This document shows, in pieces, positions 25,891 to 46,571 of a stretch of 64,000 bases of DNA. The DNA is from Phycisphaerae bacterium (GTDB lineage: Bacteria; Planctomycetota; Phycisphaerae; UBA1845): NCBI GenBank assembly GCA_029260055.1, contig JAJDDX010000424.1, positions 1 to 64,000 of the forward strand, in the 5' to 3' direction. A program made the translations under genes and the position numbers. Within the stretch, counting starts at the first letter, position 1; every line of letters begins with the position of its first letter. The notes under the pieces are model-generated. The model made no database searches, had not been told where the DNA came from, and was given only the letters and a program-made list of their open reading frames with translations.

Positions 25891-26700
25891 ATGACCATGG
25901 TGATCGCAAACGATGACGAGAGCGCGGCCGGTGAAGGCGCGTCCATTGAGTCCGTTCCGGGGCACGTATTCCTGGCCAAGATGGGCAAGAAGCTTCTTCG
26001 CCCCGGAGGCCGTCGAGCCACGGAAGAGCTGTTCACGCTGGCCGACCTGAAGCCGGGTGAGCGAGTCTGCGAGATCGCCACGAATCGCGCGGTGACCGCC
26101 ATGGAGTTGGCCGGGCGGTTCGGCGTTGAGGTGGATGGTGTCGACGCGAGTGAGGACTTCCTGTCGCTCGCTCGAAGGAACGTTGCCGCCCGCGGCTTGC
26201 AGGATCGCGTTCGGCTTCACGTGGGCAAGGGTCATGAGTTGCCGTTTGACGACGGCTCGTTCGATGTGGTGACCGCTGAGGCGGTGATCACGATGCTCCC
26301 GCTGAAGCGGAAGGCCGAGACGGTGACGGAGGCTGCGCGGGTGCTTCGGCCAGGCGGGCGTCTGGTGATCCACGAATTGGCGTGGGCTGACGACACGGAG
26401 ACGGAGATTCAAAAGGAATTGGTCGCCGCCATTCGTCACGGTGCCAACCCGCTGACCATGGAGCAGTGGAAGGCTCTGGCCACAGAGGCGGGGCTGGGCG
26501 ATGTCACCGTGCGTACGGGTATGATGTCGTTGATGTCGCCGCGCGGCCTGATTCGCGATGAAGGGATCGGCGGCGTGTGCCGGATAGGGTTCAACGTGCT
26601 GCGCACACGCGGCGCGTTTTCCCGTTTCAAGACGATGGCGCGTTTCTTCCGGCGCCATCACCAGCGACTGCGTTACATCGTGATGTGTGCGGTGAAGTGA
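25891..26700 (+). CDS. Class I SAM-dependent methyltransferase
   Basis: Counting from the ATG at 25891 (a GTG at 25873 and an ATG at 25897 are alternatives), the protein has 269 residues. Motif I reads 'GERVCEIATNRAVTAMELA', less Gly-rich than usual; motif II holds the acidic residue in 'VEVDGVDASEDFL'; motif post I is 'HELPFDDGSFDVVTAEAVI'; and 'EAARVLRPGGRLVIHEL' is the UbiE-type motif III. It transfers a methyl group from S-adenosylmethionine to an unknown acceptor, probably a small molecule or lipid. The basic C-terminus (FKTMARFFRRHHQRLRY) may contact a membrane or nucleic acid. It stands alone between two leftward operons. Confidence 0.82.
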   Translation: MTMVIANDDESAAGEGASIESVPGHVFLAKMGKKLLRPGGRRATEELFTLADLKPGERVCEIATNRAVTAMELAGRFGVEVDGVDASEDFLSLARRNVAARGLQDRVRLHVGKGHELPFDDGSFDVVTAEAVITMLPLKRKAETVTEAARVLRPGGRLVIHELAWADDTETEIQKELVAAIRHGANPLTMEQWKALATEAGLGDVTVRTGMMSLMSPRGLIRDEGIGGVCRIGFNVLRTRGAFSRFKTMARFFRRHHQRLRYIVMCAVK

Positions 26701-26741
26701 GCCGACACGGCGGCCGCGCCCAATGACCGGCGATCGGCTCA
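26698..26741. terminator. Weak inverted repeat at the methyltransferase stop
   Basis: TGAGCCGA, overlapping the stop codon, pairs with TCGGCTCA across a 28-base GC-rich loop. It lies between convergent genes (methyltransferase and the CHAT partner), where a terminator is expected, but the long loop and lack of a U tract make it weak. Confidence 0.3.
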
Positions 26742-26789
26742 GTCGGTGCCGCTGACATCATGGTCGCGGTTATCGTCGTGGCCCGCCGA

Positions 26790-27275
26790 TCACGAGCCGC
26801 CGGAGATCAGGCCCACCAGCTTCTTGATTAGCGGCGTGATCATCGCGCTATCCGTGGGCTTTTTGATGAATTTGAAGGTCCAGCGGCCCTCTTTGTCGCG
26901 GGTGATCTCGATGTGGCTTTGCAGGGCGAACAGCGCCGCGCTCATGAGCACCGTGGCGCTGACGGGGTCCAGGGCGAAGGATCGCATCTGCCCGCTGGAG
27001 GCATGGTTGATGAGGCTCTCAATGGGCCCGGCGTAGCGCTCGTCGCAGGCCAGCAACGCGAGCGTCTGGCGGGCGACTTCGGCTTGCGGCGCGGCGGCGG
27101 TTGCATCCGGAACGTCGAACTCGTCGCGCAGGGCGCTGCCGAGGTCGGGCGTCCACTCGAGCGTGCATTCGCCGGCGAGCTCACGCGGCTTGATGACCGC
27201 ATCGAGTAGGCGCACGGCCGCCGCGTCGTCGAGTTCGCCGATGTTCCGCGCCAGTTCGGCGGCGTTCGTGGTCAT
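26790..27275 (-). CDS. Small partner of the CHAT-STAND-TPR protein, unknown function
   Basis: The ATG at 27275 gives 161 residues. No signal peptide is seen; one weakly hydrophobic helix lies at about residues 105-121. The C-terminal quarter reads 'IEITRDKEGRWTFKFIKKPT' then 'LIKKLVGLISGG', suggesting a beta-hairpin followed by a helix, a compact domain of the sort paired with CHAT proteases or STAND proteins. It starts 44 bases after the giant gene's stop on the same strand and is almost certainly co-transcribed. It could be the protease's substrate, an inhibitor or a target-recognition partner; nothing in the sequence decides which. Confidence 0.65.
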   Translation of the reverse strand: MTTNAAELARNIGELDDAAAVRLLDAVIKPRELAGECTLEWTPDLGSALRDEFDVPDATAAAPQAEVARQTLALLACDERYAGPIESLINHASSGQMRSFALDPVSATVLMSAALFALQSHIEITRDKEGRWTFKFIKKPTDSAMITPLIKKLVGLISGGS

Positions 27276-27318
27276 GTTCGGGTTCCTTCTCGGTTGCGGT
27301 TTTGGTGCTCTTGCGCGC

Positions 27319-30300
27319 TCACTCGTTCGTGGTTGGCGCGGGCGCGCCGTCACCCGCGCTGGCATCGGCGTTTGGACCGGCGGCGTCACTCGGACTGGCG
27401 TCGTCTACATCCGGTATCTCCGGCCACGCGCCGAGCCCCGCTTCGTCCCACATCGCCCGGAGTTTCGCCTGCACGTCGGGCGGCGCGTGCTTCCAAGTCA
27501 CGAGATAATTGCGGGCGGTGCGTTCGACTTCGTGCGGAGCGTTGCATCGCATGAATGTCTGGCTGGACTTGATGAGCCACTTCGCCGCCTCCTCGTCCCG
27601 CCCTTGGCGTCCCGCAATGATTCCGAAGTGTTCGTACGTACCGGCTGCGGCATATTCGTCGCCCAGCTTATCGAAGATCGCAAGAGCCTTGCCATACCAC
27701 TGTCCGGCTTTCGCAAAGTCATGCCGCTCTTGTGCGAGGTTCCCCAGTTGGCCGTACGTCATGGCCGCATGTTGATCGCTTCGCAGTTTCTCGAAGCTTG
27801 CAACGGCTTTGAGGTACCACTGCTGTGCGGCGACATGCTCCTGCTGTTTCTGGGCGACGATTCCCAGATGGTGGTAGGTCATCGCGGCGGCGTGTTCATC
27901 GTCCTGGTTCTTGTTGATCGCCAGCGACTTGAGACACCACCGTTTTGCGGCGGCGAAGTCGCTCTGCTGTTGCGCTACTATCCCCAATGCGAGGTAGACC
28001 TTAGCGGTGCCGGCATCATCCGGCTGCGCCTCCATTATCGCCAGCGATTTGAGGTACCATCTCTCGGCGGCGGCGGGGTCGTGCTGCTTGGCCGCGATAT
28101 TCCCCAGTTGGGCGTACGTGGTGGCGGCGCCAGATTCGTTCCCCGTTTTCTGCTCGATCGCAAGCGACTTGAGATACCACTCCTCGGCGGCGGCGAAGTC
28201 GCGCCGTGCCTCGGCGATCATCCCCAGTTGGTGATAGGCGGCCGACTCTCCCTGGCGGTCTGCTCGCGTCTTCTGCGCGTTCGCTAGACGCGTGAACAAG
28301 TGGGCGGCGCCGGCGAAATCGCGCGCGTTCAGGGCAAACGAACCCATGGACTGCGTTAGGGCGCAGACGCCAATGTCGATGCCAAGCCGCTCGGCCTCGG
28401 TGAGGGCGTGGTGGAAGTTGGCGCTGTGTGCAGCGAAGAATCCTCGCTGTTCGTGGAGTTCTCGCGGGGCAAGTTGGTCGGCTACTTGCGCCATCACATC
28501 CACAAACGCTCTGGTCCAGATGCCGCGGGCATCGGCGTCCGCTGCTGACAGCGCCGTGGCACTAAGGTAGCCGGTCAGTGCGGGGTGCATCTCGAAAACC
28601 GATGCAACCCGATGGCGAAGCAGGCCCGCTCCGCAGAGCGCCTCTGCGAAGCGATCGATGACCGCGCGTGACGGGCCTTCATCGACCTGTTTGGCCATGT
28701 GTTCCAGGTAGTTCGCGTCCACGAAGCCCTCGTGCAGGGCAAGCGGAATCAGGAGCGGACGCTGTTCCTCCGGCAGCGAGTCCTCCACGAACCGCAGCGT
28801 GGCGGCCAGTTTGGCGCTGACCTCGTCCTCGTCGAGGCTCAGGTCCGCCAGGTTGCTGCGCAGGGCGGCTGCGAGTTGCCCGGCGCTGCGCTCGGCGAGC
28901 TTGGGGATGATGGCCCGCATCGCCAGCGTGTGGCCACCGAGCAGGTCCATCAGCTCGATCATGTCGCTGTCGGTGCGGTCGACCTTTAGCCCCTGGTCGC
29001 GCAGGACGACCTCGCAGTAGTCCCATCGCTCGTCGCCCTCCAGTCCGCCGATGGTGAGCAGGAATCGGTTTTCGTTTCCCAGCCACTCCTCCGTCGAGCG
29101 GCTGGTGATGATCACCTTGGTCTTGCCGCCGCGAAGCTTCTTGAGGAAGGTGAGGAGGAGTTCGCGATCCTCGTCGGTCAGGTTTGCGGTGACCGATGTG
29201 CCGGCGATCCCCTTGGCGACCTCGAAGTTGTCCCAGACGATGACGAAGCGGTTTTCCTTGAAGGCGGCTGACAGGGCGTCGAGCTTTTGCTCCATCGGTG
29301 CCTTGATGAAGTCGGGTCCGTAGATCGCCGTGCCCATGCCGTGGATGACGAACTCGGCGTTGCGGATGTCGTTGAACGTGAACCAGAGGCATCCGTTGCC
29401 GAGCCCCTCCGTGGCCTCGAGCCATTGCGCGAAGCCGCGGGCCAGCGTGGTCTTACCAACGCCGCCGAGCCCGTGAATCAGTATCCCCGCGGGCGGGCGA
29501 AGCATTGCCCGTTCCAGGGCGAGCAGCGGGCCGTCGCGGCCGATGAAGCCGTAGGGGTTGTCCTCGTCGCGGGCGCCCTCCGGGAGTTGCGATTCACCGC
29601 GCTGAGCCGTTTTCTTCGCTTCCGTCGCGAAGGAGAAATCCAGGGGCTTCTGCTGGTAGACGACGGGCACGAGCCAATCCTTGAGCGGGAAGTCGCCTCG
29701 CGCGCAGATGCGGCCCGGATGGGCGAGCATTTGCTGCCGCCCCGCGCGCACGCCCTGGGCGACGTTGCCGGCCTCAAAGAGCCGCTCGTAAAACGCCGGC
29801 ACGAAGTGTCTTGCGCCGCTGACGTAGAGCGAGTAGGCCATCGCCACCACGCTGCGCATGCCGGACTTCAGCAGCGACGCGGCCACCGACGCGAAGGCGT
29901 CCTCCGCGTGGGAGTCGATCATCGCGGACTGACAGGCGTTGAGCACGACGGCGGGGACGGCGGATTCTTTCAGCAGGTTGCTGAGCTGCTCGGTGTCGAC
30001 CTGGTCGGGCTCGCCCTTCTCGTCTTCAAAGACGAGCACGCCGCGTGAACCTTGCAGGCTGTGTCTCTGGTCGGCCGTCGCGCCGTCTGGTGAGGTCGTG
30101 CCGTAGCCGCCGTGTCCGTCGAAGTGCAGGATGTGGTAATGGTGCGGGTGTTCGCGCAGATGGCGGCGCAGTTGGTCGAAGGTCGGCGGCCGCAGAACCG
30201 TGACGTGGGCGGGGAGGTGATGTTCGTCGATCAACTCCACCAGCGGCCGCGAGATGGAGCGGTATCGCACGTCCTCCTTGTACGGCCGAGCTGTGACCAG

Positions 30301-30813
30301 CAGGATGTTCACGCGATCCTTCGGCAAGCGTTCATCGAGTGGTGGCGGATCGACGATCTCGTTGATGCGGCGTTCGATCTGACAGGTTTGCGCGAGCAGG
30401 CCGGCCGAGGAATCCTCCAGCGCCTCCCACGGCCACGCGAGGATGCGCGGATCGTCACTGGATACCTGCAAGTGCAGGCGATCGTAGTGTCCGTCGTTCG
30501 TGGCTTGTGCAAGGAACGCGCCGCCCTGTTTCGTGTCGAACAGGGTGTCGAACGCTTGTCGCCCCCATGTGCGGAGGGCGTCGAGCACGCGGTCGGCGTG
30601 GTCGGTCTCCGGCGCAAAGGGGTAGGCAAGGAACTGTTCGAGGTACCAGCGGAGTTCCCGCACGAGGCCGCTGTCGGGCCTGCCGTCGACGGGGAAGCCG
30701 ACGGGTGGCGTGATGGCGGCCGACTTCGTGCGTTTGCCGTCTTTTAGGCGTTCGACGTGGAAGGTGGGGCTATCGTCGGGGCCACCCGTGTGTCGGATGA
30801 TAAGCGTGTTCAT
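27319..30813 (-). CDS. CHAT protease-STAND NTPase-TPR protein
   Basis: The 1164-residue protein has three modules. Residues about 110-390 form a CHAT (caspase/separase-like) protease with the His in 'HFDGHGGY' (His234) and the Cys in 'VVLNACQSA' (Cys294). Residues about 420-750 form an NB-ARC/STAND-type NTPase with Walker A 'GLGGVGKTT' (448-456), Walker B 'FVIVWDNFE' (523-531) and 'KVIITSRST'. Residues about 830-1085 hold six tandem TPR-like units of exactly 40 residues. A Pro/Ala/Asp-rich tail follows. This is the layout of an inflammasome- or apoptosome-like sensor: TPRs or a partner sense a trigger, the NTPase oligomerises and the protease is released. Such proteins act in phage defence or cell death. 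The small gene downstream is its likely partner. Confidence 0.88.
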   Translation of the reverse strand: MNTLIIRHTGGPDDSPTFHVERLKDGKRTKSAAITPPVGFPVDGRPDSGLVRELRWYLEQFLAYPFAPETDHADRVLDALRTWGRQAFDTLFDTKQGGAFLAQATNDGHYDRLHLQVSSDDPRILAWPWEALEDSSAGLLAQTCQIERRINEIVDPPPLDERLPKDRVNILLVTARPYKEDVRYRSISRPLVELIDEHHLPAHVTVLRPPTFDQLRRHLREHPHHYHILHFDGHGGYGTTSPDGATADQRHSLQGSRGVLVFEDEKGEPDQVDTEQLSNLLKESAVPAVVLNACQSAMIDSHAEDAFASVAASLLKSGMRSVVAMAYSLYVSGARHFVPAFYERLFEAGNVAQGVRAGRQQMLAHPGRICARGDFPLKDWLVPVVYQQKPLDFSFATEAKKTAQRGESQLPEGARDEDNPYGFIGRDGPLLALERAMLRPPAGILIHGLGGVGKTTLARGFAQWLEATEGLGNGCLWFTFNDIRNAEFVIHGMGTAIYGPDFIKAPMEQKLDALSAAFKENRFVIVWDNFEVAKGIAGTSVTANLTDEDRELLLTFLKKLRGGKTKVIITSRSTEEWLGNENRFLLTIGGLEGDERWDYCEVVLRDQGLKVDRTDSDMIELMDLLGGHTLAMRAIIPKLAERSAGQLAAALRSNLADLSLDEDEVSAKLAATLRFVEDSLPEEQRPLLIPLALHEGFVDANYLEHMAKQVDEGPSRAVIDRFAEALCGAGLLRHRVASVFEMHPALTGYLSATALSAADADARGIWTRAFVDVMAQVADQLAPRELHEQRGFFAAHSANFHHALTEAERLGIDIGVCALTQSMGSFALNARDFAGAAHLFTRLANAQKTRADRQGESAAYHQLGMIAEARRDFAAAEEWYLKSLAIEQKTGNESGAATTYAQLGNIAAKQHDPAAAERWYLKSLAIMEAQPDDAGTAKVYLALGIVAQQQSDFAAAKRWCLKSLAINKNQDDEHAAAMTYHHLGIVAQKQQEHVAAQQWYLKAVASFEKLRSDQHAAMTYGQLGNLAQERHDFAKAGQWYGKALAIFDKLGDEYAAAGTYEHFGIIAGRQGRDEEAAKWLIKSSQTFMRCNAPHEVERTARNYLVTWKHAPPDVQAKLRAMWDEAGLGAWPEIPDVDDASPSDAAGPNADASAGDGAPAPTTNE
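27561..28326 (-). repeat. Six in-frame 120-base TPR-coding repeats
   Basis: Conserved TY/AY pairs recur at residues 860, 900, 940, 980, 1020 and 1060, and 'WYLKSLAI'-like segments keep the same 40-residue phase. The DNA repeat is therefore 120 bases long and in frame. Units differ at many codons, so it is an older array, but the exact period shows growth by unit duplication. It should not be mistaken for a non-coding repeat. Confidence 0.75.
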
Positions 30814-31041
30814 GTCGGTTCCTTGACGCGCTGTGTCCTTGTGCCGGTCGGTGGCGGTGCGGGATTGCGCGGGATGGGGTCGTGTCGAATCGCTCCTATG
30901 ACGTGCCGCCTGTCAAGTCGCGTCGTCGGCGGAGCGGGCTTACGACTTCGGGTGACTCGCCGTAGCGACGCGACCAGTCTACAGCAACTCATTCAGGAGA
31001 TGAAGAGGTTTTCTCAGTGATTCGTCGCAATGGCCGACAAC

Positions 31042-31065
31042 CGTGTAGGTGAAAACACCTACACG
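31042..31065. promoter_or_regulatory. Perfect palindrome with AAAA loop
   Basis: CGTGTAGGTG, AAAA, CACCTACACG: a 10-base-pair perfect hairpin or dyad. It lies 14 bases past the end of the dockerin-like remnant and about 230 bases upstream of the CHAT gene, both leftward. Without a U run it is a poor terminator on the coding strand; it may be an operator for a dimeric regulator or a dispersed palindrome. Confidence 0.5.
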
Positions 31066-31079
31066 CGATGCCCGCCGGG

Positions 31080-31200
31080 TCAGTTGGCGGCGAACCTTGC
31101 TGAAAACTCGCCGAAGTCGTCCAGGTCGACATCGCCGTCTGTGTCGGCGTCGAAGGTTGCCAGGCAGGACTGGGCCGTCGTTGGCAGCGGCGGTCTTGCT
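31080..31200 (-). pseudogene. Dockerin-like C-terminal remnant
   Basis: The leftward frame ends in 'CLATFDADTDGDVDLDDF' then 'GEFSARFAAN' and a stop, matching the calcium-loop dockerin-like ends of planctomycete secreted proteins. No start, signal peptide or body domain is attached: upstream sequence in frame is unremarkable and overlaps the end of the lipoprotein gene. It is best read as the tail of a lost secreted protein. The alternative, a very short independent gene, is less likely. Confidence 0.6.
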
Positions 31201-31221
31201 TGGCATCGCCCCTGCGCGTTA

Positions 31222-31731
31222 CTAGTCTTGGAGAATGCGAACGTCCCAGCCGGTCGGCGTCCCATCAAGGGCTCGAAGGGCGACTCTGGTGTTCTTGTCC
31301 TCGACATCAACGACGTCTTGTAGCAGGAGGATGGGCTGCAGGTCGGGGTCCTTTCCTGCTTCGCCGGGCGGGACCCTATAGTGAAACACCTTGTATTGTA
31401 TCTGTAGGGGGTCCGCGTCTACGAGATTCAGGCCGATGAAGACGCCGTTCGCTTTTGTCTCGTCAGTGACACCCGGTGTGTAGAAGACCGGATTGGGCCC
31501 CGCGGAATCGATCTCGACGAACTCCCCCGACGGCAGGTTGTGGGCGGTGTCCGCCACCCGGCGCGGCGGCTCCAGGCCGAGGTTGACCGGGTAGGGCGTC
31601 AGCGTTTCAAAAGTGCGGTTATGGAACTCAATCTTCGACGTGAAATCGCACCCGGCTGATACGACGATTGCGCCGACGGCACACCAGCAGATCTCACACC
31701 ACGAGACTAGTCGTCTTTTCGTTCGAGACAT
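31222..31731 (-). CDS. Small lipoprotein, unknown function
   Basis: The Met at 31731 follows a GGAG site and gives 169 residues with a basic N-terminus, a hydrophobic segment and a lipobox-like 'VVSAGC', so the mature protein would be lipid-anchored. The mature part is soluble ('EFHNRTFETLTPYPVNLGLE', 'FIGLNLVDADPLQIQYKVFH', 'LLQDVVDVEDKNTRVALRAL') and predicts beta structure resembling small outer-membrane lipoproteins of the DUF1425 sort, but this is weak. It has no operon partner; the dockerin-like remnant follows its stop. Confidence 0.6.
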   Translation of the reverse strand: MSRTKRRLVSWCEICWCAVGAIVVSAGCDFTSKIEFHNRTFETLTPYPVNLGLEPPRRVADTAHNLPSGEFVEIDSAGPNPVFYTPGVTDETKANGVFIGLNLVDADPLQIQYKVFHYRVPPGEAGKDPDLQPILLLQDVVDVEDKNTRVALRALDGTPTGWDVRILQD

Positions 31732-35745: not shown

Positions 35746-37188
35746 TCAACGGCGATCATCCGACATGAAACCCGTCGCGTTCTCGGTTACCAAGGCTGCG
35801 AGATTGGCGAGCAGCAATAGGCCTCGGGCCAGGAATGGTCGCCACTTCGTTTCCGATCCAGTGTCGACGCTGAGAACACCACGCACCGTCGTGCCCGACA
35901 TCATTGGGACGAGATATACCTGTCTGGTCTGCTTCGAAAACTCGTAATAGAACATCGTGGCCGAGTCATGCCGAGGTGGCACATCGGTATGATAGATGGG
36001 GATCGTTGACCAATTCTTCGAATAGGCATAGCGCGGCTGGAGTTCGCCATCGACCATCGCCTTGATGAGGCTCCGGGAGCTCTCAAGTTCTACTCCCTCC
36101 GCCAGTCTCTCACAGTGGCCTTTCGCGAGGCGGAACGTGCCGCTGGCTTTGTCATCCCCAGTCTGCCTGACAAGCCTCCCCAAACGGCCGGCGTCTTTTC
36201 CATCGAGAACGAATTCATCCGATTTGTGAGCCCCTCTGATTAGCAAACGGTCTTGGCTCTTGGTAACAGCAAGGATCAAATGGGGGCTACCGCGTTCGAC
36301 GCGCTCCAGAAGCGAGTTGACCTCGTCGACCACGGGCTGAAGGTTGGCGACTTCTTGGGATACTCCCGTGAGCCCGGCCGCAGAGATCTTGACCGCGCTC
36401 TCGAGGCACTCTGTGGTGAACTTCCAGTCACTCCTCGCTGGATCAATGACTTCACGGATGAACTCTTCGGTTCGTGGCTCAGGGTGTTCGAGGATCTTCT
36501 CTGGAGTATCATACTCTATGAGCTGGCCGCTGTCTATCACGGCCACTCGCGAGGCGGCGCGAGTAAGAAAGTCTACGCGATGAGTGATCATCACGACCGT
36601 GCGAGAAGAATCGGGAATGTACAGCTCCTCAATGAGTGCAAGGACGCGTTCCATTGCCTCAGGATCCAGGTGGACCTCTACTTCGTCGAGCAGGAGGATC
36701 TCCGGAGCGGTGGCGAACGTCCGAGCGATTGCCACGCGTCGCCGCACTCCGCCCGAGAGCGAAGATGGATACATGTCCCACTGTTGTTTCGCCACGCCAA
36801 GACGCTCCAGCCAATACTCCGCACGCTCCTCGGCATCCCGAAAAGCGAGGTCGCGCGTGTACTGCAGTGGGTGCGCCACATTGCTCTTGACCTTCATGTG
36901 CGGCCATAGTGACGGCTCCTGGAACACAACACCGATGCGTTTCCTGACATTGATCGGCCAGCCGCCACTCCGGTCCTTTAGGACCTCGTCGCCATCGAGG
37001 AAGCCAAGTTGTATCGTGCCGGAATCGAAGCCGATAAGGCCGGCGACGCATTTTAGCAGGGTGCTCTTTCCCGCGCCGTTCCGTCCCAGAATACAGACAA
37101 GATCGCCACGGTTGATATCGAGTGATAGGTCGGCGAGTGCAACGTCTCCGTCGAACGACTTACTCAATGCGGTAACCTGAATTGCCAT
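35746..37188 (-). CDS. ABC importer ATPase with C-terminal GAF-like domain
   Basis: Starting at the Met at 37188, four bases after the permease gene's stop, the protein has 480 residues, about twice the usual size. Residues 1-240 are an ABC ATPase of the polar-amino-acid type: Walker A 'GRNGAGKST', signature 'SLSGGVRRRVAIARTF', Walker B 'ILLLDEVEVHLDP' (DEV where DEP is usual) and switch 'VMITHR'. The C-terminal half is unrelated to ABC subunits; its end, 'VPMMSGTTVRGVLSVDTGSE' followed by a helix, looks like a GAF sensory fold. It may sense a ligand and tune transport. Base composition looks less GC-rich than neighbouring operons, so recent transfer is possible. Confidence 0.8.
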   Translation of the reverse strand: MAIQVTALSKSFDGDVALADLSLDINRGDLVCILGRNGAGKSTLLKCVAGLIGFDSGTIQLGFLDGDEVLKDRSGGWPINVRKRIGVVFQEPSLWPHMKVKSNVAHPLQYTRDLAFRDAEERAEYWLERLGVAKQQWDMYPSSLSGGVRRRVAIARTFATAPEILLLDEVEVHLDPEAMERVLALIEELYIPDSSRTVVMITHRVDFLTRAASRVAVIDSGQLIEYDTPEKILEHPEPRTEEFIREVIDPARSDWKFTTECLESAVKISAAGLTGVSQEVANLQPVVDEVNSLLERVERGSPHLILAVTKSQDRLLIRGAHKSDEFVLDGKDAGRLGRLVRQTGDDKASGTFRLAKGHCERLAEGVELESSRSLIKAMVDGELQPRYAYSKNWSTIPIYHTDVPPRHDSATMFYYEFSKQTRQVYLVPMMSGTTVRGVLSVDTGSETKWRPFLARGLLLLANLAALVTENATGFMSDDRR

Positions 37189-37192
37189 GTCT

Positions 37193-38791
37193 CTAGGCGC
37201 CTCGACCTGTGGGACGTCCCATTCTCTTTTCAAACTGATCCGCGAACCACGCAATCGGAATGACGATTACCAAGTAGCAGGCAACCATCCAGAAGTACGC
37301 CCAAAACGTGTCGTAAGTCTCTCGCAGTGCCTGCTGTGAGCGATTCAGGAGTTCGGCGACACCGATTATCGATGCGAGTGACGAGAGTTTGATAGTCGTA
37401 AAGTACTGGACAAGCAACGGCTTCCCGATCAATCGGAGGATGAGCGGTCGTTTGAATTGCCATGCAATCTGTATCTCTGTGTAACCGAACGCCTTTGCAG
37501 CGAGGATCTGAGTCTCCGGTAGGTTCTGCAGCCCCGTGGTGATTATTGTAGCGGCAAACGGGGATAAGTTGATCGCCAGGGCGATGATCGCGGCCGTCGC
37601 GGCACTCATGCTGGGGAGGAAGCCCGCGTAGTACACGACCAGTATCAAGACGAGAGCTGGAATGCCGAGGAACACATACACAGTGCCCTTGACGAGTCGG
37701 CGAAACCGCGTTGATGGTTCTTTCGCAAGCACAGCGCCAAGCGCGATGCCGAGGAGTGTTCCGAGGAAGATGGCAGTGAGCGATACGTACAGCGTGTAGA
37801 AGATGCCCGAAGCTAGTGCGCCGGAGTACCTGGTAAGGAAGTGCCACCCGCGGGCGAGAAACGAAACCTGCTGGGCGGGTCCTACCAGCGCTTGCGTTGA
37901 AGCAGTAGGCTTGGCAAAAGGGATGCCAGGATAATCAAGGCGAAGGTTGCGAATCCACCCGGTGCTTGCCAGAGCGTCGAGTTGAGTGTTAATGTGCGCG
38001 CGAAGTTCGTCCTCTCCTTTCTTGACCGCCCAACAGATCGGAAGGACGCTGTAGGGTGCATCCGCCAGTGCGTCGCGGACATCTGGATTCGCTCGCGCGT
38101 AGCGGCGCAGAATGAACTGATCGGACAGCGCGACATCGGCTCGCTCTTGTTTGACCGAAAGTGGGGCTAACGTAAGATCCGCTCCTTGTAGAACTTGTAG
38201 CTGGGCATGCTGAAAGTGCTTTGTCGCGTACTCGTAGCCGAACTCTCCAAGAACAGTAGCCACGACCAGACCAGGCTGATCGAAATCGTCTATTGAATCG
38301 ACGTTGATAAAGCGACGATCGTCGACTCGTACGAGCGCGCCGTTGCCCAAGTGGAAGATCGGATCTGTAAAGTCGACGATCTGCTCGCGCTGGGGTGTTC
38401 GAAACGTCCCTGCGATGCTCAGATCGAACTTGCCTTGATTGAGGCCGGTGCCAAATGCGCCCCAGTCTGTTGGAAGGAACTTGATGGAATCTGGCGGAAC
38501 ACCGAGGGAGTCGGCGACCTCATACAGAACATCGACAAGGAAACCTTTCGGCTCACCCGATGTCGCGTCGCACGACGTCACGTCAAAGTAAGGGATGTAG
38601 CCAACCTTGAGCGTTCCTTCGCGACTTATGCGAGCGAGAGTAGACGACTGTTCGGTAGAAGGCGGGCCGAAGAAGCGATCGCGGAGACCGAAGAAGTCGT
38701 TAAAGAGGCCGATTGCAGCGACCAGCACGCCAAGGGTCAGTGCGAGCCAACGGAACGGATGGGCGCGTGGGGCAGCCGTCATCCAAGGCAC
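37193..38791 (-). CDS. Fused solute-binding and permease subunit of an amino-acid-type ABC importer
   Basis: The 532-residue protein starts with a membrane anchor ('FRWLALTLGVLVAAIGLF'), then a solute-binding domain of the family 3 type (about residues 55-295: 'GTLKVGYIPYFDVTSCDATS', 'KFDLSIAGTFRTPQREQIVD'). A HisM-type permease domain follows (about 315-525) with five or so membrane segments and the EAA-like loop 'ETQILAAKAFGYTEIQIAWQ'. Only one permease is encoded, so it should form a homodimer. The ATPase gene follows after 4 bases. Binding-permease fusions are known in amino-acid importers; the substrate (an amino acid or small polar ligand) is not defined. Confidence 0.87.
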   Translation of the reverse strand: MPWMTAAPRAHPFRWLALTLGVLVAAIGLFNDFFGLRDRFFGPPSTEQSSTLARISREGTLKVGYIPYFDVTSCDATSGEPKGFLVDVLYEVADSLGVPPDSIKFLPTDWGAFGTGLNQGKFDLSIAGTFRTPQREQIVDFTDPIFHLGNGALVRVDDRRFINVDSIDDFDQPGLVVATVLGEFGYEYATKHFQHAQLQVLQGADLTLAPLSVKQERADVALSDQFILRRYARANPDVRDALADAPYSVLPICWAVKKGEDELRAHINTQLDALASTGWIRNLRLDYPGIPFAKPTASTQALVGPAQQVSFLARGWHFLTRYSGALASGIFYTLYVSLTAIFLGTLLGIALGAVLAKEPSTRFRRLVKGTVYVFLGIPALVLILVVYYAGFLPSMSAATAAIIALAINLSPFAATIITTGLQNLPETQILAAKAFGYTEIQIAWQFKRPLILRLIGKPLLVQYFTTIKLSSLASIIGVAELLNRSQQALRETYDTFWAYFWMVACYLVIVIPIAWFADQFEKRMGRPTGRGA

Positions 38792-42932: not shown

Positions 42933-43416
42933 ACTCGTGTGAGCGGCCGTCACGCGCCGCAGGGCGCATGCGCGCTCTGCCGACCGCGCGGTACCGATAA
43001 AGGGAAGCCCGCCGAACTCCCGGCGGGGCACGCAAACCGAACAACGCCGGGCCAGGGGGCATCGGTCAGATCCCCCTAAGGGGATTAGACGCCCAGGGAC
43101 CCGCTGGATCAGCGTGCCCAAGCCCGGTTCAAGCACCGCGGCATGCACCATAAGCACACCGCCCCCCCACGCAGGGCCGCGCCCCGCACCCCGGGCATCT
43201 CAAATTAACAGAGACTCTAGCCGTTCGCGCGAAGGCGCACGCCCATACACAGGGCACACTCTCCACGCGATCCTTTCCTACTAGCGTAAGTGCGCGGAAT
43301 CCGGTATACTGTGCGTGAAATCTGAGATTCTCCTCGCTTTCTTTTGGTCTGCCCCGGAGGCACGCATGTCGCGCACCGCCGTGGGGCGGCAACGCTGGCT
43401 TTGAGTGGGGAACCAC
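42933..43416. other. Divergent regulatory region of about 480 bases
   Basis: It lies between the leftward response regulator and the rightward sigma-kinase operon. No gene is supported. It holds the ATCCCC/GGGGAT dyad at 43070-43085 and a TATACT at 43305-43310 about 105 bases before the sigma start, a plausible -10 without a recognisable -35. Confidence 0.5.
43070..43085. promoter_or_regulatory. ATCCCC-CTAA-GGGGAT dyad upstream of the response regulator
   Basis: A 6-base-pair inverted repeat with a 4-base spacer lies about 138 bases upstream of the response regulator start and about 330 bases upstream of the sigma gene. Its size suits a dimeric LuxR/NarL-type DNA-binding domain, so it could be an autoregulatory site. 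The link is inference. Confidence 0.35.
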
Positions 43417-44007
43417 ATGGACACCGGGTCGAGCCACACCGGATTCTCGCGCAGTCCAGACTCGGGCCGAGAGACGATTCTCCGGCTCGTCGCGGCGCAC
43501 GAACCATCGATCCGCCGGATCATCGGGCAGCGCAGCGGACCGGGCGTACTTCGACGAACCACACTCGACGACTTGTTCCAGGAGACGGTCACGGCTGCGC
43601 TGAGAGGAGCGAATTCGTTTGTCTACATCGACGATGCTCGCTTCGTGGCATGGATGACGACAATCGCACGAAACGTCATCGCGCGAACCGGCAGAGATGC
43701 GGCGCGCCGCCCCGGGGAACGGCGTCTCAAGAGCCCGGAGTCTTCCGGCGTGGGTGTGGTCGACGACGAACTCGTTTCACCCGAGCGGACACCGTCGAGT
43801 GTCGTCTCAGCCAGAGAGTGCGAGGTCGCGCTCGGGCGGGCGTTGAGCAGGCTCCCCGACCATTATCGCGAAGTCATCACGCTCTATCGAATCGAGGGGC
43901 TTTCGATGGCCGACGTGGCCGAGAGGATGGGGCGCACCGAAAGCGCGTGTTGCAGCCTCTTTCTTCGCGCCATGAAGGTCCTTCGCACGAAGTACCCAAT
44001 CCGATGA
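43417..44007 (+). CDS. ECF-like sigma-70 family RNA polymerase sigma factor
   Basis: The ATG at 43417 (a GTG lies 12 bases upstream) gives 196 residues. Region 2 is seen in 'TTLDDLFQETVTAALRGANS' and 'ARFVAWMTTIARNVIARTGR'; region 4 in 'LPDHYREVITLYRIEGLSMA' and the helix-turn-helix 'DVAERMGRTESACCSLFLRA'. It belongs to the planctomycete group of ECF sigma factors encoded beside Ser/Thr kinases. Its stop overlaps the kinase start (ATGA), so the pair is co-translated, and the membrane kinase is the probable control input by phosphorylation, as reported for other kinase-linked ECF groups. Confidence 0.88.
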   Translation: MDTGSSHTGFSRSPDSGRETILRLVAAHEPSIRRIIGQRSGPGVLRRTTLDDLFQETVTAALRGANSFVYIDDARFVAWMTTIARNVIARTGRDAARRPGERRLKSPESSGVGVVDDELVSPERTPSSVVSARECEVALGRALSRLPDHYREVITLYRIEGLSMADVAERMGRTESACCSLFLRAMKVLRTKYPIR

Positions 44008-46571
44008 GCCCTCGCGAGCGATCTTCAGCGGAATTCACTGCCGTCGTGCAGGAGTATTTCTCGGAAGTCGATGCCGGCACGGCGCCCGACCGGAGTGAGT
44101 TCGTGGCGCGGCATCCGGAGTGTGCCGACGAGCTTCGCATCTTCTTCGACGATCTCGAATTCCTGGATCACAAGATAGCCGAGAGTCCGCTCTCGAGCGG
44201 GTCCGCGAGCGCCGCGGAGGCTCCCGGGCGAGCCGCCGCGGATCGTGCCGGAGCGAGTTCGGACCCCGGGGCTGCCGACGAGCTGCCGGACATCGCTGGT
44301 TACCGGCTGATCACCGAACTGGGCGGTGGCGGTCAGGGCACCGTCTACATGGCGGAGCAGAGTTCGACGCGTCGGGTTGTGGCTCTGAAGCTCCTTCGCG
44401 AAGGGGCGTTTGCGTCGCGGGCGGACCGGCTTCGCTTCCAGAACGAGATCGAGCTTGCGTCGAGCCTTACCCACCCGGCTGTCGTTCGCGTTTACGCTTC
44501 CGGTCAGGCCAACGGGCATTCCTATTTTACGATGGAGTTTGTCGACGGCGATCCTCTCGACATCCACGTCCGCACGCAGGAGGCGAGCATCGCCGAGGTC
44601 TTGCGGCTGTTCAAGAAGACCTGCGACGGCGTCAGCTACGCTCATCGTCACGGTGTGATCCACCGCGATCTGAAGCCTTCCAACATCCTGGTCGACGTTA
44701 ACGGAGAGCCTCACATCCTGGATTTCGGGCTAGCCAAGCGGGTTGCCGGGGTCATCGGGCCGGGCGCCAGGCCTGTGACCGAAATCGGGCAGTTCACCGG
44801 CACGTGGCAGTACGCCTCGCCCGAGCAGATTCGGGGGAATCCGTCGCTGGTCGACACGCGGACGGACGTATACACGCTGGGCGTCATTTTGTACGAGCTG
44901 CTCGCGGATAGCCTGCCGTATCCGGGCAGCAGCGAGTCGCGCGGTGCGATTGCTCGGCACATTATCGGCACTTACCCGAAGCGGCTCCGGTCGGTCCGCC
45001 CGGAGGTCTCCCCCGACCTCGAAGCCATCGTTCTCAGAGCTCTGCACAAGGAGTGCGACGAGCGGTACCAATCGGTCGCGGAGCTCAGGGACGATATTCA
45101 GCGCCATCTGGACGGGCTACCGATTCACGCCAAGCGCGACAGCGTCCTGTATGTCGCTCGCCTTGCGGTCCGACGACACCGGTGGCGCGTCGGCGCGGCT
45201 GCAGTCAGCCTGGCCGCACTGATTGTGTTCGCGGTGGTCGTTTCGTTGCTATATTCGAGCGCTGAGCAGGCCCGAGCGACACTGGAGGAGCGCATGGACC
45301 TCCGGCGCAACAGTCAAGGCTATCTCGTTCGGCATGTCGACGAACTCAGTTTTGCCCGCAACCTGCTGCGCGAAACTGCCCTCGCTCATCCGGACCTCCC
45401 GGAACTGCAGCGATGGCGCAAGCCGGTCTTTACATCCCCTGAGGAGACCCTGGACCTCGCCATCGCGGGTATGCCGAAGGGCATGCCGGACGTGATGTAC
45501 GAGCCGGCGGCGCCTGAGTACGCCGTCGCGGAGGCGTGGCTGCGGTCACGGGCGCGGCAGCTAAGCGACGTCGAGGAGCTCACGTCCAACTACCGATTGG
45601 CATTCGGGGGCGCCGAAGGTGAATACACGGGAACTTACTGGGCACTGAGCGACCGGCCGGTCGGACACTTTGCCGCGCAGAACGCCGGGAGTGCGCTCGT
45701 TGGGAGAGCGCTTATGTCCTTCCGTGCCGGACAACCTGAGGAAGCCCTCGCGAGCCTCGATGCCGCAAGAATGATAGCGCTGGGGCTTGGAGATGGGCGT
45801 TACAACCTGCACAAACGCGCCGCGTTGCACATTCGCGGGTGTACGTACGATGCCGTTCTCGATATCCTCGGAAACTGCGGTGGAGACGCTTCGCTTGCCG
45901 CTCCGTTCGTGTCTTGGATTCGTCGGGATCCGGCGTTACCGGACCTGAGGTCCGCATTGGTGACGCGTCGCATGCGTGCGGCGCAAGCCATCGAGTCGGC
46001 TACGGTCGCCGACGGCGCAGGGGCATACGTCGATTTGGACGAGCTGAATCGGTTTTCGAGCGGTCTGATCAACAAGGTGGGCCAACTGACGGACGAGAAC
46101 CGCGAGCGGTTGCGCGATGCGAAGCCCAGCGAGGCGATCGAGTTGATCGATCAGCACGTGGCAGCGGTCGCTCTCCCGGCGCGGGACGCTGCCATGTTGC
46201 CCGGGCACGATCGCAACCAATCCGCGTTGGATCCGAGCCACCCCATCGCAGCACTGATGCCGAATCTGAAGATGCTCCGTCGTACGCATCGCATAATCGA
46301 CCTTCGACGGACGGCCGCGATGCTCGTCGGCGGTATCTGTGGCTACCATTCCGAGCGTGGCGAGTGGCCGGTGACGCTGCAGGCGTTCCTTCCGGATGTT
46401 GGCCCCATATCGCCGGAGATGGTCATGCACGAGGCGTACTCGTACGTTCTTTCGGATGGTATGCCGACTCTCTACGCCGTTCGTTCCGTTGGTGACGGCG
46501 ATGCCGGGCCGTTCCGTCCTTTCACGACCGGTCCAGCCGGTTCCGTCGTTTGGCGCTCCGCGGAGCCTTGA
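44004..46571 (+). CDS. Membrane Ser/Thr protein kinase linked to a sigma factor
   Basis: From the ATG at 44004 the protein has 855 residues; the open frame continuing upstream is antisense-like overlap with the sigma gene. A planctomycete-type N-terminal helix region ('EYFSEVDAGTAPDRSEFVAR') precedes the kinase domain (about 99-375): Gly-rich loop 'LGGGGQGTVY', Lys129 in 'VALKLL', HRDLKPSN (220-227), DFG (240-242) and 'SPEQIRG'. One membrane segment lies at 396-418, followed by about 435 residues outside with no recognised fold ('DLPELQRWRKPVFTSPEETL', 'EEALASLDAARMIALGLGDG'), perhaps the sensor. It is cytoplasmic kinase, periplasmic sensor in topology, and probably acts on the overlapping sigma factor. 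Confidence 0.92.
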   Translation: MSPRERSSAEFTAVVQEYFSEVDAGTAPDRSEFVARHPECADELRIFFDDLEFLDHKIAESPLSSGSASAAEAPGRAAADRAGASSDPGAADELPDIAGYRLITELGGGGQGTVYMAEQSSTRRVVALKLLREGAFASRADRLRFQNEIELASSLTHPAVVRVYASGQANGHSYFTMEFVDGDPLDIHVRTQEASIAEVLRLFKKTCDGVSYAHRHGVIHRDLKPSNILVDVNGEPHILDFGLAKRVAGVIGPGARPVTEIGQFTGTWQYASPEQIRGNPSLVDTRTDVYTLGVILYELLADSLPYPGSSESRGAIARHIIGTYPKRLRSVRPEVSPDLEAIVLRALHKECDERYQSVAELRDDIQRHLDGLPIHAKRDSVLYVARLAVRRHRWRVGAAAVSLAALIVFAVVVSLLYSSAEQARATLEERMDLRRNSQGYLVRHVDELSFARNLLRETALAHPDLPELQRWRKPVFTSPEETLDLAIAGMPKGMPDVMYEPAAPEYAVAEAWLRSRARQLSDVEELTSNYRLAFGGAEGEYTGTYWALSDRPVGHFAAQNAGSALVGRALMSFRAGQPEEALASLDAARMIALGLGDGRYNLHKRAALHIRGCTYDAVLDILGNCGGDASLAAPFVSWIRRDPALPDLRSALVTRRMRAAQAIESATVADGAGAYVDLDELNRFSSGLINKVGQLTDENRERLRDAKPSEAIELIDQHVAAVALPARDAAMLPGHDRNQSALDPSHPIAALMPNLKMLRRTHRIIDLRRTAAMLVGGICGYHSERGEWPVTLQAFLPDVGPISPEMVMHEAYSYVLSDGMPTLYAVRSVGDGDAGPFRPFTTGPAGSVVWRSAEP

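Follow-up and report, generated by a model that had tools for sequence, protein, structure and literature searches.

Avs/AVAST and other STAND antiphage proteins consist of an effector domain, a STAND NTPase and a C-terminal repeat sensor. CHAT-STAND-TPR proteins are built like the NLR proteases of animals and fungi, and to our knowledge the targets of their protease domain are mostly unknown. STAND proteins with a TPR sensor should be kept closed by their TPR array as long as no ligand is bound; ligand binding would then be followed by ATP-driven assembly (PMC6468293). For proteases of related build, the product of a neighbouring gene was shown to be the target. In the fungus Podospora, a TPR-CHAT protease activates the adjacent gasdermin (PMC12881547), and in Craspase the TPR-CHAT protein Csx29 cleaves the co-encoded Csx30 (PMC10028731). 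In the EACC1-caspase pairs ("System 4", Kaur et al., 2020), EACC1 was proposed as the transmembrane component (PMC7159879).

Here, a gene pair from a Phycisphaerae bacterium is compared with these systems. It lies within a stretch of 64,000 nucleotides (the window), and its features, all on the minus strand, are the following:

27319 to 30813, minus strand: receptor gene encoding a CHAT-STAND-TPR protein of 1164 residues (open reading frame and Pfam matches)
29716 to 30483, minus strand: CHAT (caspase-like) protease domain, residues 111-366 (PF12770, E 2.5e-20; a genome scan gave the same span)
30112 to 30114, minus strand: catalytic His234 in HFDGHG (kept in 12 of 12 aligned proteins)
29932 to 29934, minus strand: catalytic Cys294 in NACQS (kept in 12 of 12 aligned proteins)
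28564 to 29547, minus strand: STAND (NB-ARC/AAA-like) NTPase and winged-helix region, about residues 423-750 (weak Pfam matches and conserved motifs)
29446 to 29472, minus strand: Walker A GLGGVGKTT, residues 448-456 (motif conserved in homologues)
29221 to 29241, minus strand: Walker B IVWDNFE, residues 525-531 (motif conserved in homologues)
27517 to 28236, minus strand: six TPR units of 40 residues, residues 860-1099 (TPR_12 and repeat analysis)
27276 to 27318, minus strand: intergenic stretch of 43 nt, with AGAAGGAA at 27283-27290 ahead of the ATG of the partner
26790 to 27275, minus strand: small partner gene encoding 161 residues of an undescribed family (open reading frame; relatives in other genomes)
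26979 to 27275, minus strand: predicted N-terminal helical region of the partner, residues 1-99, with the motif RIxxLxDxxAxRxL and the ELARQALLLLAEDP helices (alignment and low-confidence model)
26919 to 26966, minus strand: predicted hydrophobic helix of the partner, residues 104-119 (hydropathy and low-confidence model)
26862 to 26918, minus strand: predicted beta-hairpin of the partner, residues 120-138, best conserved together with the following KKPT (alignment; strands in the low-confidence model)
26799 to 26849, minus strand: predicted C-terminal helix of the partner, residues 143-159 (alignment and low-confidence model)

A preliminary description of this DNA had reported an intact CHAT His/Cys dyad, intact Walker A and B motifs and six TPR-like units of 40 residues, all of which were recovered here by the domain match, the alignment and the repeat analysis. 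Its layout of a 1164-residue gene followed by a 161-residue gene was likewise accurate, except that the spacing given as 44 bases measures 43 nt. The repeat units start at residues 860, 900, 940, 980, 1020 and 1060, each being exactly 40 residues long, and the array matches TPR_12 with an E value of 7.6e-28. The NTPase matches in Pfam are weak and below the cut-offs (AAA_16 3.5e-4, NB-ARC 5.4e-4, NACHT 7e-3), while Walker A, Walker B, the TSR sensor and the winged-helix HP (MHD-like) are conserved in homologues; judged by these motifs instead of the family score, the NTPase is of the STAND type. Its GxP motif (window 28927-28935) reads GHT in place of the GHP, GNP or GYP of relatives, with a possible effect on nucleotide binding. 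The structure model of residues 1-840 is of low confidence (pLDDT 50). In another genome (G093, L017 4746-6638), the same TPR array and the C-terminal motif AMWREAGLG are fused to another N-terminal region, downstream of an ATPase-like gene, which marks the sensor part of the receptor as a seemingly modular unit. The receptor shares the effector-STAND-repeat build with Avs/AVAST proteins (PMC12931631, PMC12799240). In contrast to these, it has no Avs match in PADLOC, and the CHAT effector combined with a small partner represents another make-up. PADLOC assigned only general TPR, SAVED_CHAT and BovA domains to the receptor and matched the pair to no catalogued antiphage system.

The small gene has its own ATG, preceded by the ribosome-binding-like stretch named above. 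No terminator-like site was found in 27276-27318 on the minus strand, a scan restricted to sigma-70-like promoters gave none in 26500-31400, and Rfam gave no match across the window. By the sequence evidence, the small gene is truly coding, since it has homologues in other genomes and its GC contents by codon position (0.64/0.48/0.87) resemble those of the neighbouring receptor gene. An antisense frame of 374 residues (27163-28287, plus strand) was dismissed as a gene for want of support. The protein is without a match in Pfam, NCBIfam, PADLOC and PDB, in line with its earlier placement outside known families. Seven members could be aligned with 11 invariant columns. The order of elements is an N-terminal RIxxLxDxxAxRxL helix, the ELARQALLLLAEDP helices in the middle and, in the C-terminal third, the hydrophobic helix, the hairpin and a short helix, the two halves being separated by a variable loop. 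The structure model (mean pLDDT 51) is of low confidence and was used for secondary structure alone. The highest 19-residue hydropathy window of the window's protein covers residues 100-118 (mean KD 1.72), and the best means of all seven members range from 1.45 to 1.88; as a transmembrane segment, the helix is thus borderline. The predicted hairpin stretch of the family reads QTHxxFERDxxGxWTLKxEKKPT, and identity among relatives reaches 38-54% in this region (residues 117-142).

Relatives of the partner at about 30% identity were found in the genomes G072 (same order as the window genome) and G128, in Zavarzinella formosa (Planctomycetota), on plasmid pACPOL1 of Acidisarcina polymorpha, in an acidobacterial MAG and in the genome G272, with a relic in G047. 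In five genomes (window, G072, G128, Zavarzinella and Acidisarcina) the partner lies directly 3' of a CHAT-STAND-TPR gene, and in the MAG it follows a TPR array that is cut by the contig end. The spacings are, with the window first, +43, +4, -29, +4, 0 and about +22 nt, and the partner is the 3' gene in every receptor-linked case. Over residues 1-780, the four other partner-bearing receptors are 52-59% identical to that of the window. Receptors above 50% identity occur in 3 of 397 genomes of the class (the window's own, G072 and G128), each of them with the partner. On pACPOL1 (L018 4382-7922), the receptor is annotated as separate CHAT and TPR genes, apparently owing to a frameshift, and the partner stands behind the TPR gene. 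No comparable small gene was found behind the other three CHAT genes of the window genome, and no relative of the partner among IMG/VR contigs and phages. Loss of adjacency in related genomes had been named beforehand as the observation that would speak against a functional pair; what was found is a partner kept 3' of CHAT-STAND-TPR genes in two phyla. A purely accidental neighbourhood of the two genes, without functional relation, is hardly conceivable: orphan copies in G272 and G047 are all that was found in favour of this reading, against the same 3' position in five of five receptors of the clade and in a sixth, truncated one, across two phyla and at distances of -29 to +43 nt. The pair is a genuine conserved two-gene unit, and the partner family is absent from current libraries. 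A small gene fixed at the 3' slot in two phyla is a candidate direct partner and makes the question of the protease target testable.

Among published systems, the EACC1-caspase pairs (PMC7159879) are the nearest kind. They also comprise two genes, combine a constant caspase-family protease with variable domains, STAND NTPases and repeats among them, and include a small protein of similar layout: a hydrophobic helix containing small residues, then beta strands and a further helix. However, EACC1 is the 5' gene whereas the partner is the 3' gene, and the protease described here belongs to the CHAT family. With the gene order reversed and no EACC1 match, the pair falls outside this group. Hmmscan gave no EACC1 match (PF19953) for the partner and four relatives and none in the window genome, and hhalign against two EACC1-type sequences gave a probability under 1% with a thin profile. 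EACC1 matches are rare in planctomycetes (3 of 392 genomes); as yardstick loci, L050 1468-1881 and L052 1345-1689 carry EACC1-type genes, each followed by a caspase-like gene. In the gasdermin pairs (PMC12881547, PMC9612521), a CHAT or caspase-like protease likewise adjoins a gene whose product it activates, and the sensors are of the NLR type; the partner described here differs in its size of about 150-160 residues and in its predicted elements, which are mostly helices with one hairpin in the low-confidence model. Searches of Pfam, NCBIfam and PDB returned no gasdermin family match for it. Craspase (PMC10028731) resembles the pair in joining a CHAT protease with TPRs to a co-encoded substrate, whereas the receptor of the window has a STAND core, with CHAT first and TPR last, no CRISPR effector was seen alongside, and Csx30, at 565 residues, is far larger than the partner. 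Of the preliminary proposal, the two-gene system outside family libraries stands. In kind, the pair is not wholly without precedent, the EACC1-caspase, fungal TPR-CHAT/gasdermin and Csx29/Csx30 pairs following the same logic of a protease plus partner. The locus is a fresh variant of protease-centred conflict systems that are already known.

From the conserved pairing, the intact motifs, the hydropathy of the partner, these parallels and the conflict-type traits given below, a two-gene NLR-like system in which the receptor protease acts through the partner, as a switch for self-killing or immunity, is proposed, a reading to which we would give an even chance. Herein, the TPR array would sense a ligand (probably a protein of an invader) and keep the receptor inactive in its absence; ATP binding by the STAND core would lead to receptor assembly, which would switch on the N-terminal CHAT protease, with the output running via the co-encoded partner. 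The partner may be the substrate of the protease, a putative cut in the loop before residue 100 freeing a C-terminal module of hydrophobic helix, hairpin and short C-terminal helix that would act at the membrane. Alternatively, it may be an adaptor at the membrane, docking or gating the receptor in the way suggested for EACC1. Both roles appear about equally compatible with the sequence; that of substrate and effector is slightly favoured, because documented CHAT pairs cleave the product of the neighbouring gene and a variable loop separates the halves of the partner. What the sequences show is the conserved gene pair, its intact motifs and the layout of the partner, while sensing, activation, cleavage, membrane action and immune purpose are all steps that we infer. 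If the partner is indeed a cleaved membrane effector, the pair would represent a parallel to pyroptosis that does without gasdermin. The interest of the pair is real, though moderate until the role of the partner is tested.

Partners that occur apart from a receptor bear on this role. G272 holds one intact and one frameshifted copy (L031 1613-2053 and L032 about 2287-2708), neither of them near a receptor of this clade. Both orphans are surrounded by copies of a short repeated sequence whose frames read ...RFATAQAGCLCYE..., and in L031 a frame resembling a REP-type transposase is found next to the partner. In G047, which belongs to the window's own family, only the last 57 residues of the partner remain (65% identity, L006 9300-9470), without a receptor. 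Tolerance of an intact stand-alone copy speaks against constitutive toxicity and would agree with the partner being a pro-form, adaptor or inhibitor. On its own the partner is probably non-toxic, and the receptor-less copy of G272 leaves room for another role. The persistence of such copies would also be expected if the partner were a harmless inhibitor or chaperone of the receptor, comparable to an antitoxin, holding the CHAT protease in check until titration or loss of the partner leaves it free to kill by cleaving host proteins; tight coupling and the 3' position would suit a stoichiometric partner of this kind. Nevertheless, the receptors of G063, Tolypothrix and Streptomyces have no partner homologue, which means that the protease core can as a rule do without it, and the conserved hydrophobic helix would be needless in a soluble inhibitor. 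We consider this explanation distinctly unlikely.

Turning from the partner's role to the purpose of the pair, the system proposed above has to be weighed against a pair for regulated proteolysis or housekeeping signalling, e.g., a switch in stress or development, that takes no part in defence. This reading draws on the chromosomal-type setting among housekeeping genes without a defence island, on a GC content of the pair equal to that of its surroundings and on STAND-TPR proteins such as MalT, which are established as ordinary regulators (PMC6468293). In the window, the neighbours of the pair encode an ABC exporter, a methyltransferase, an AMP-ligase and similar proteins. The expected location in a defence island was not borne out, as PADLOC gave no credible defence gene beside the copies of the window, G072, Zavarzinella and Acidisarcina. 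Its "mad3/AriA/PtuA" matches at 35746-37254 belong to an ABC-transporter ATPase (PF00005), and a "mad2" match lies near the Zavarzinella copy. At 43344-46571, the window encodes a large Ser/Thr kinase-domain protein that is unrelated to the pair.

Against a housekeeping pair stand the very patchy spread, the plasmid copy, a likely transfer across phyla, the self-identical TPR arrays and the orphan and decayed remnants. A tree built on the CHAT-STAND regions unites the five receptors that have the partner in a single clade (SH-aLRT 100). Within it, the window receptor clusters with the plasmid copy of the acidobacterium (SH-aLRT 93) instead of with G072 of the same order, which makes exchange across phyla likely. 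The end branch leading to the window is 1.06 for the partner versus 0.24 for the receptor, by which the partner is estimated to evolve faster than the receptor. At the DNA level, self-identity of the TPR units averages 87% in G128 and reaches 98% in Zavarzinella, but is only 54% in the window. Fungal NLRs carry repeats with high internal conservation (PMC4986451), of which such arrays are reminiscent. Taken as sequence traits, the spread over 3 of 397 genomes of the class, the plasmid copy, the self-identical arrays and the fast partner are features of the conflict type, and a pair for regulated proteolysis or housekeeping alone appears unlikely, though still to be reckoned with.

CHAT-STAND-TPR proteins were found in at least four phyla in this analysis. 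Beside receptors at 27-36% identity (cyanobacteria, actinobacteria and G063), no homologue of the partner was found; the receptor of G063 is 32-33% identical to that of the window. In three distant cases, a different small protein is encoded in or beside the 3' slot. A small frame in Nonomuraea (L027 from 6183), without annotation in the record used, overlaps the end of the receptor gene (LDPVSLASLIVSAAALAWTVY), the gene of Nostoc SO-36 lies at L029 10606-11010, and that of Calothrix (L038 8056-8502) is oriented opposite to the receptor. Homology of the partner to the Nonomuraea and Nostoc proteins was rejected: they share a layout of LDPxS/LDPxI plus hydrophobic stretch, yet the hhalign probability is under 1%. 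That CHAT-STAND-TPR proteins as a rule have a small hydrophobic-helix partner encoded in this slot is an appealing thought, as yet unproven. A still wider reading, which we put forward as possible but doubtful, is that the partner represents a new class of death effectors that act at the membrane after activation by CHAT, distinct from gasdermins yet likewise released by an NLR-like receptor; other lineages would have their own version of this device in the small proteins of Nonomuraea, Nostoc and Calothrix. All three of these proteins have a hydrophobic helix, and those of Nostoc SO-36 and Calothrix are 51% identical to each other.
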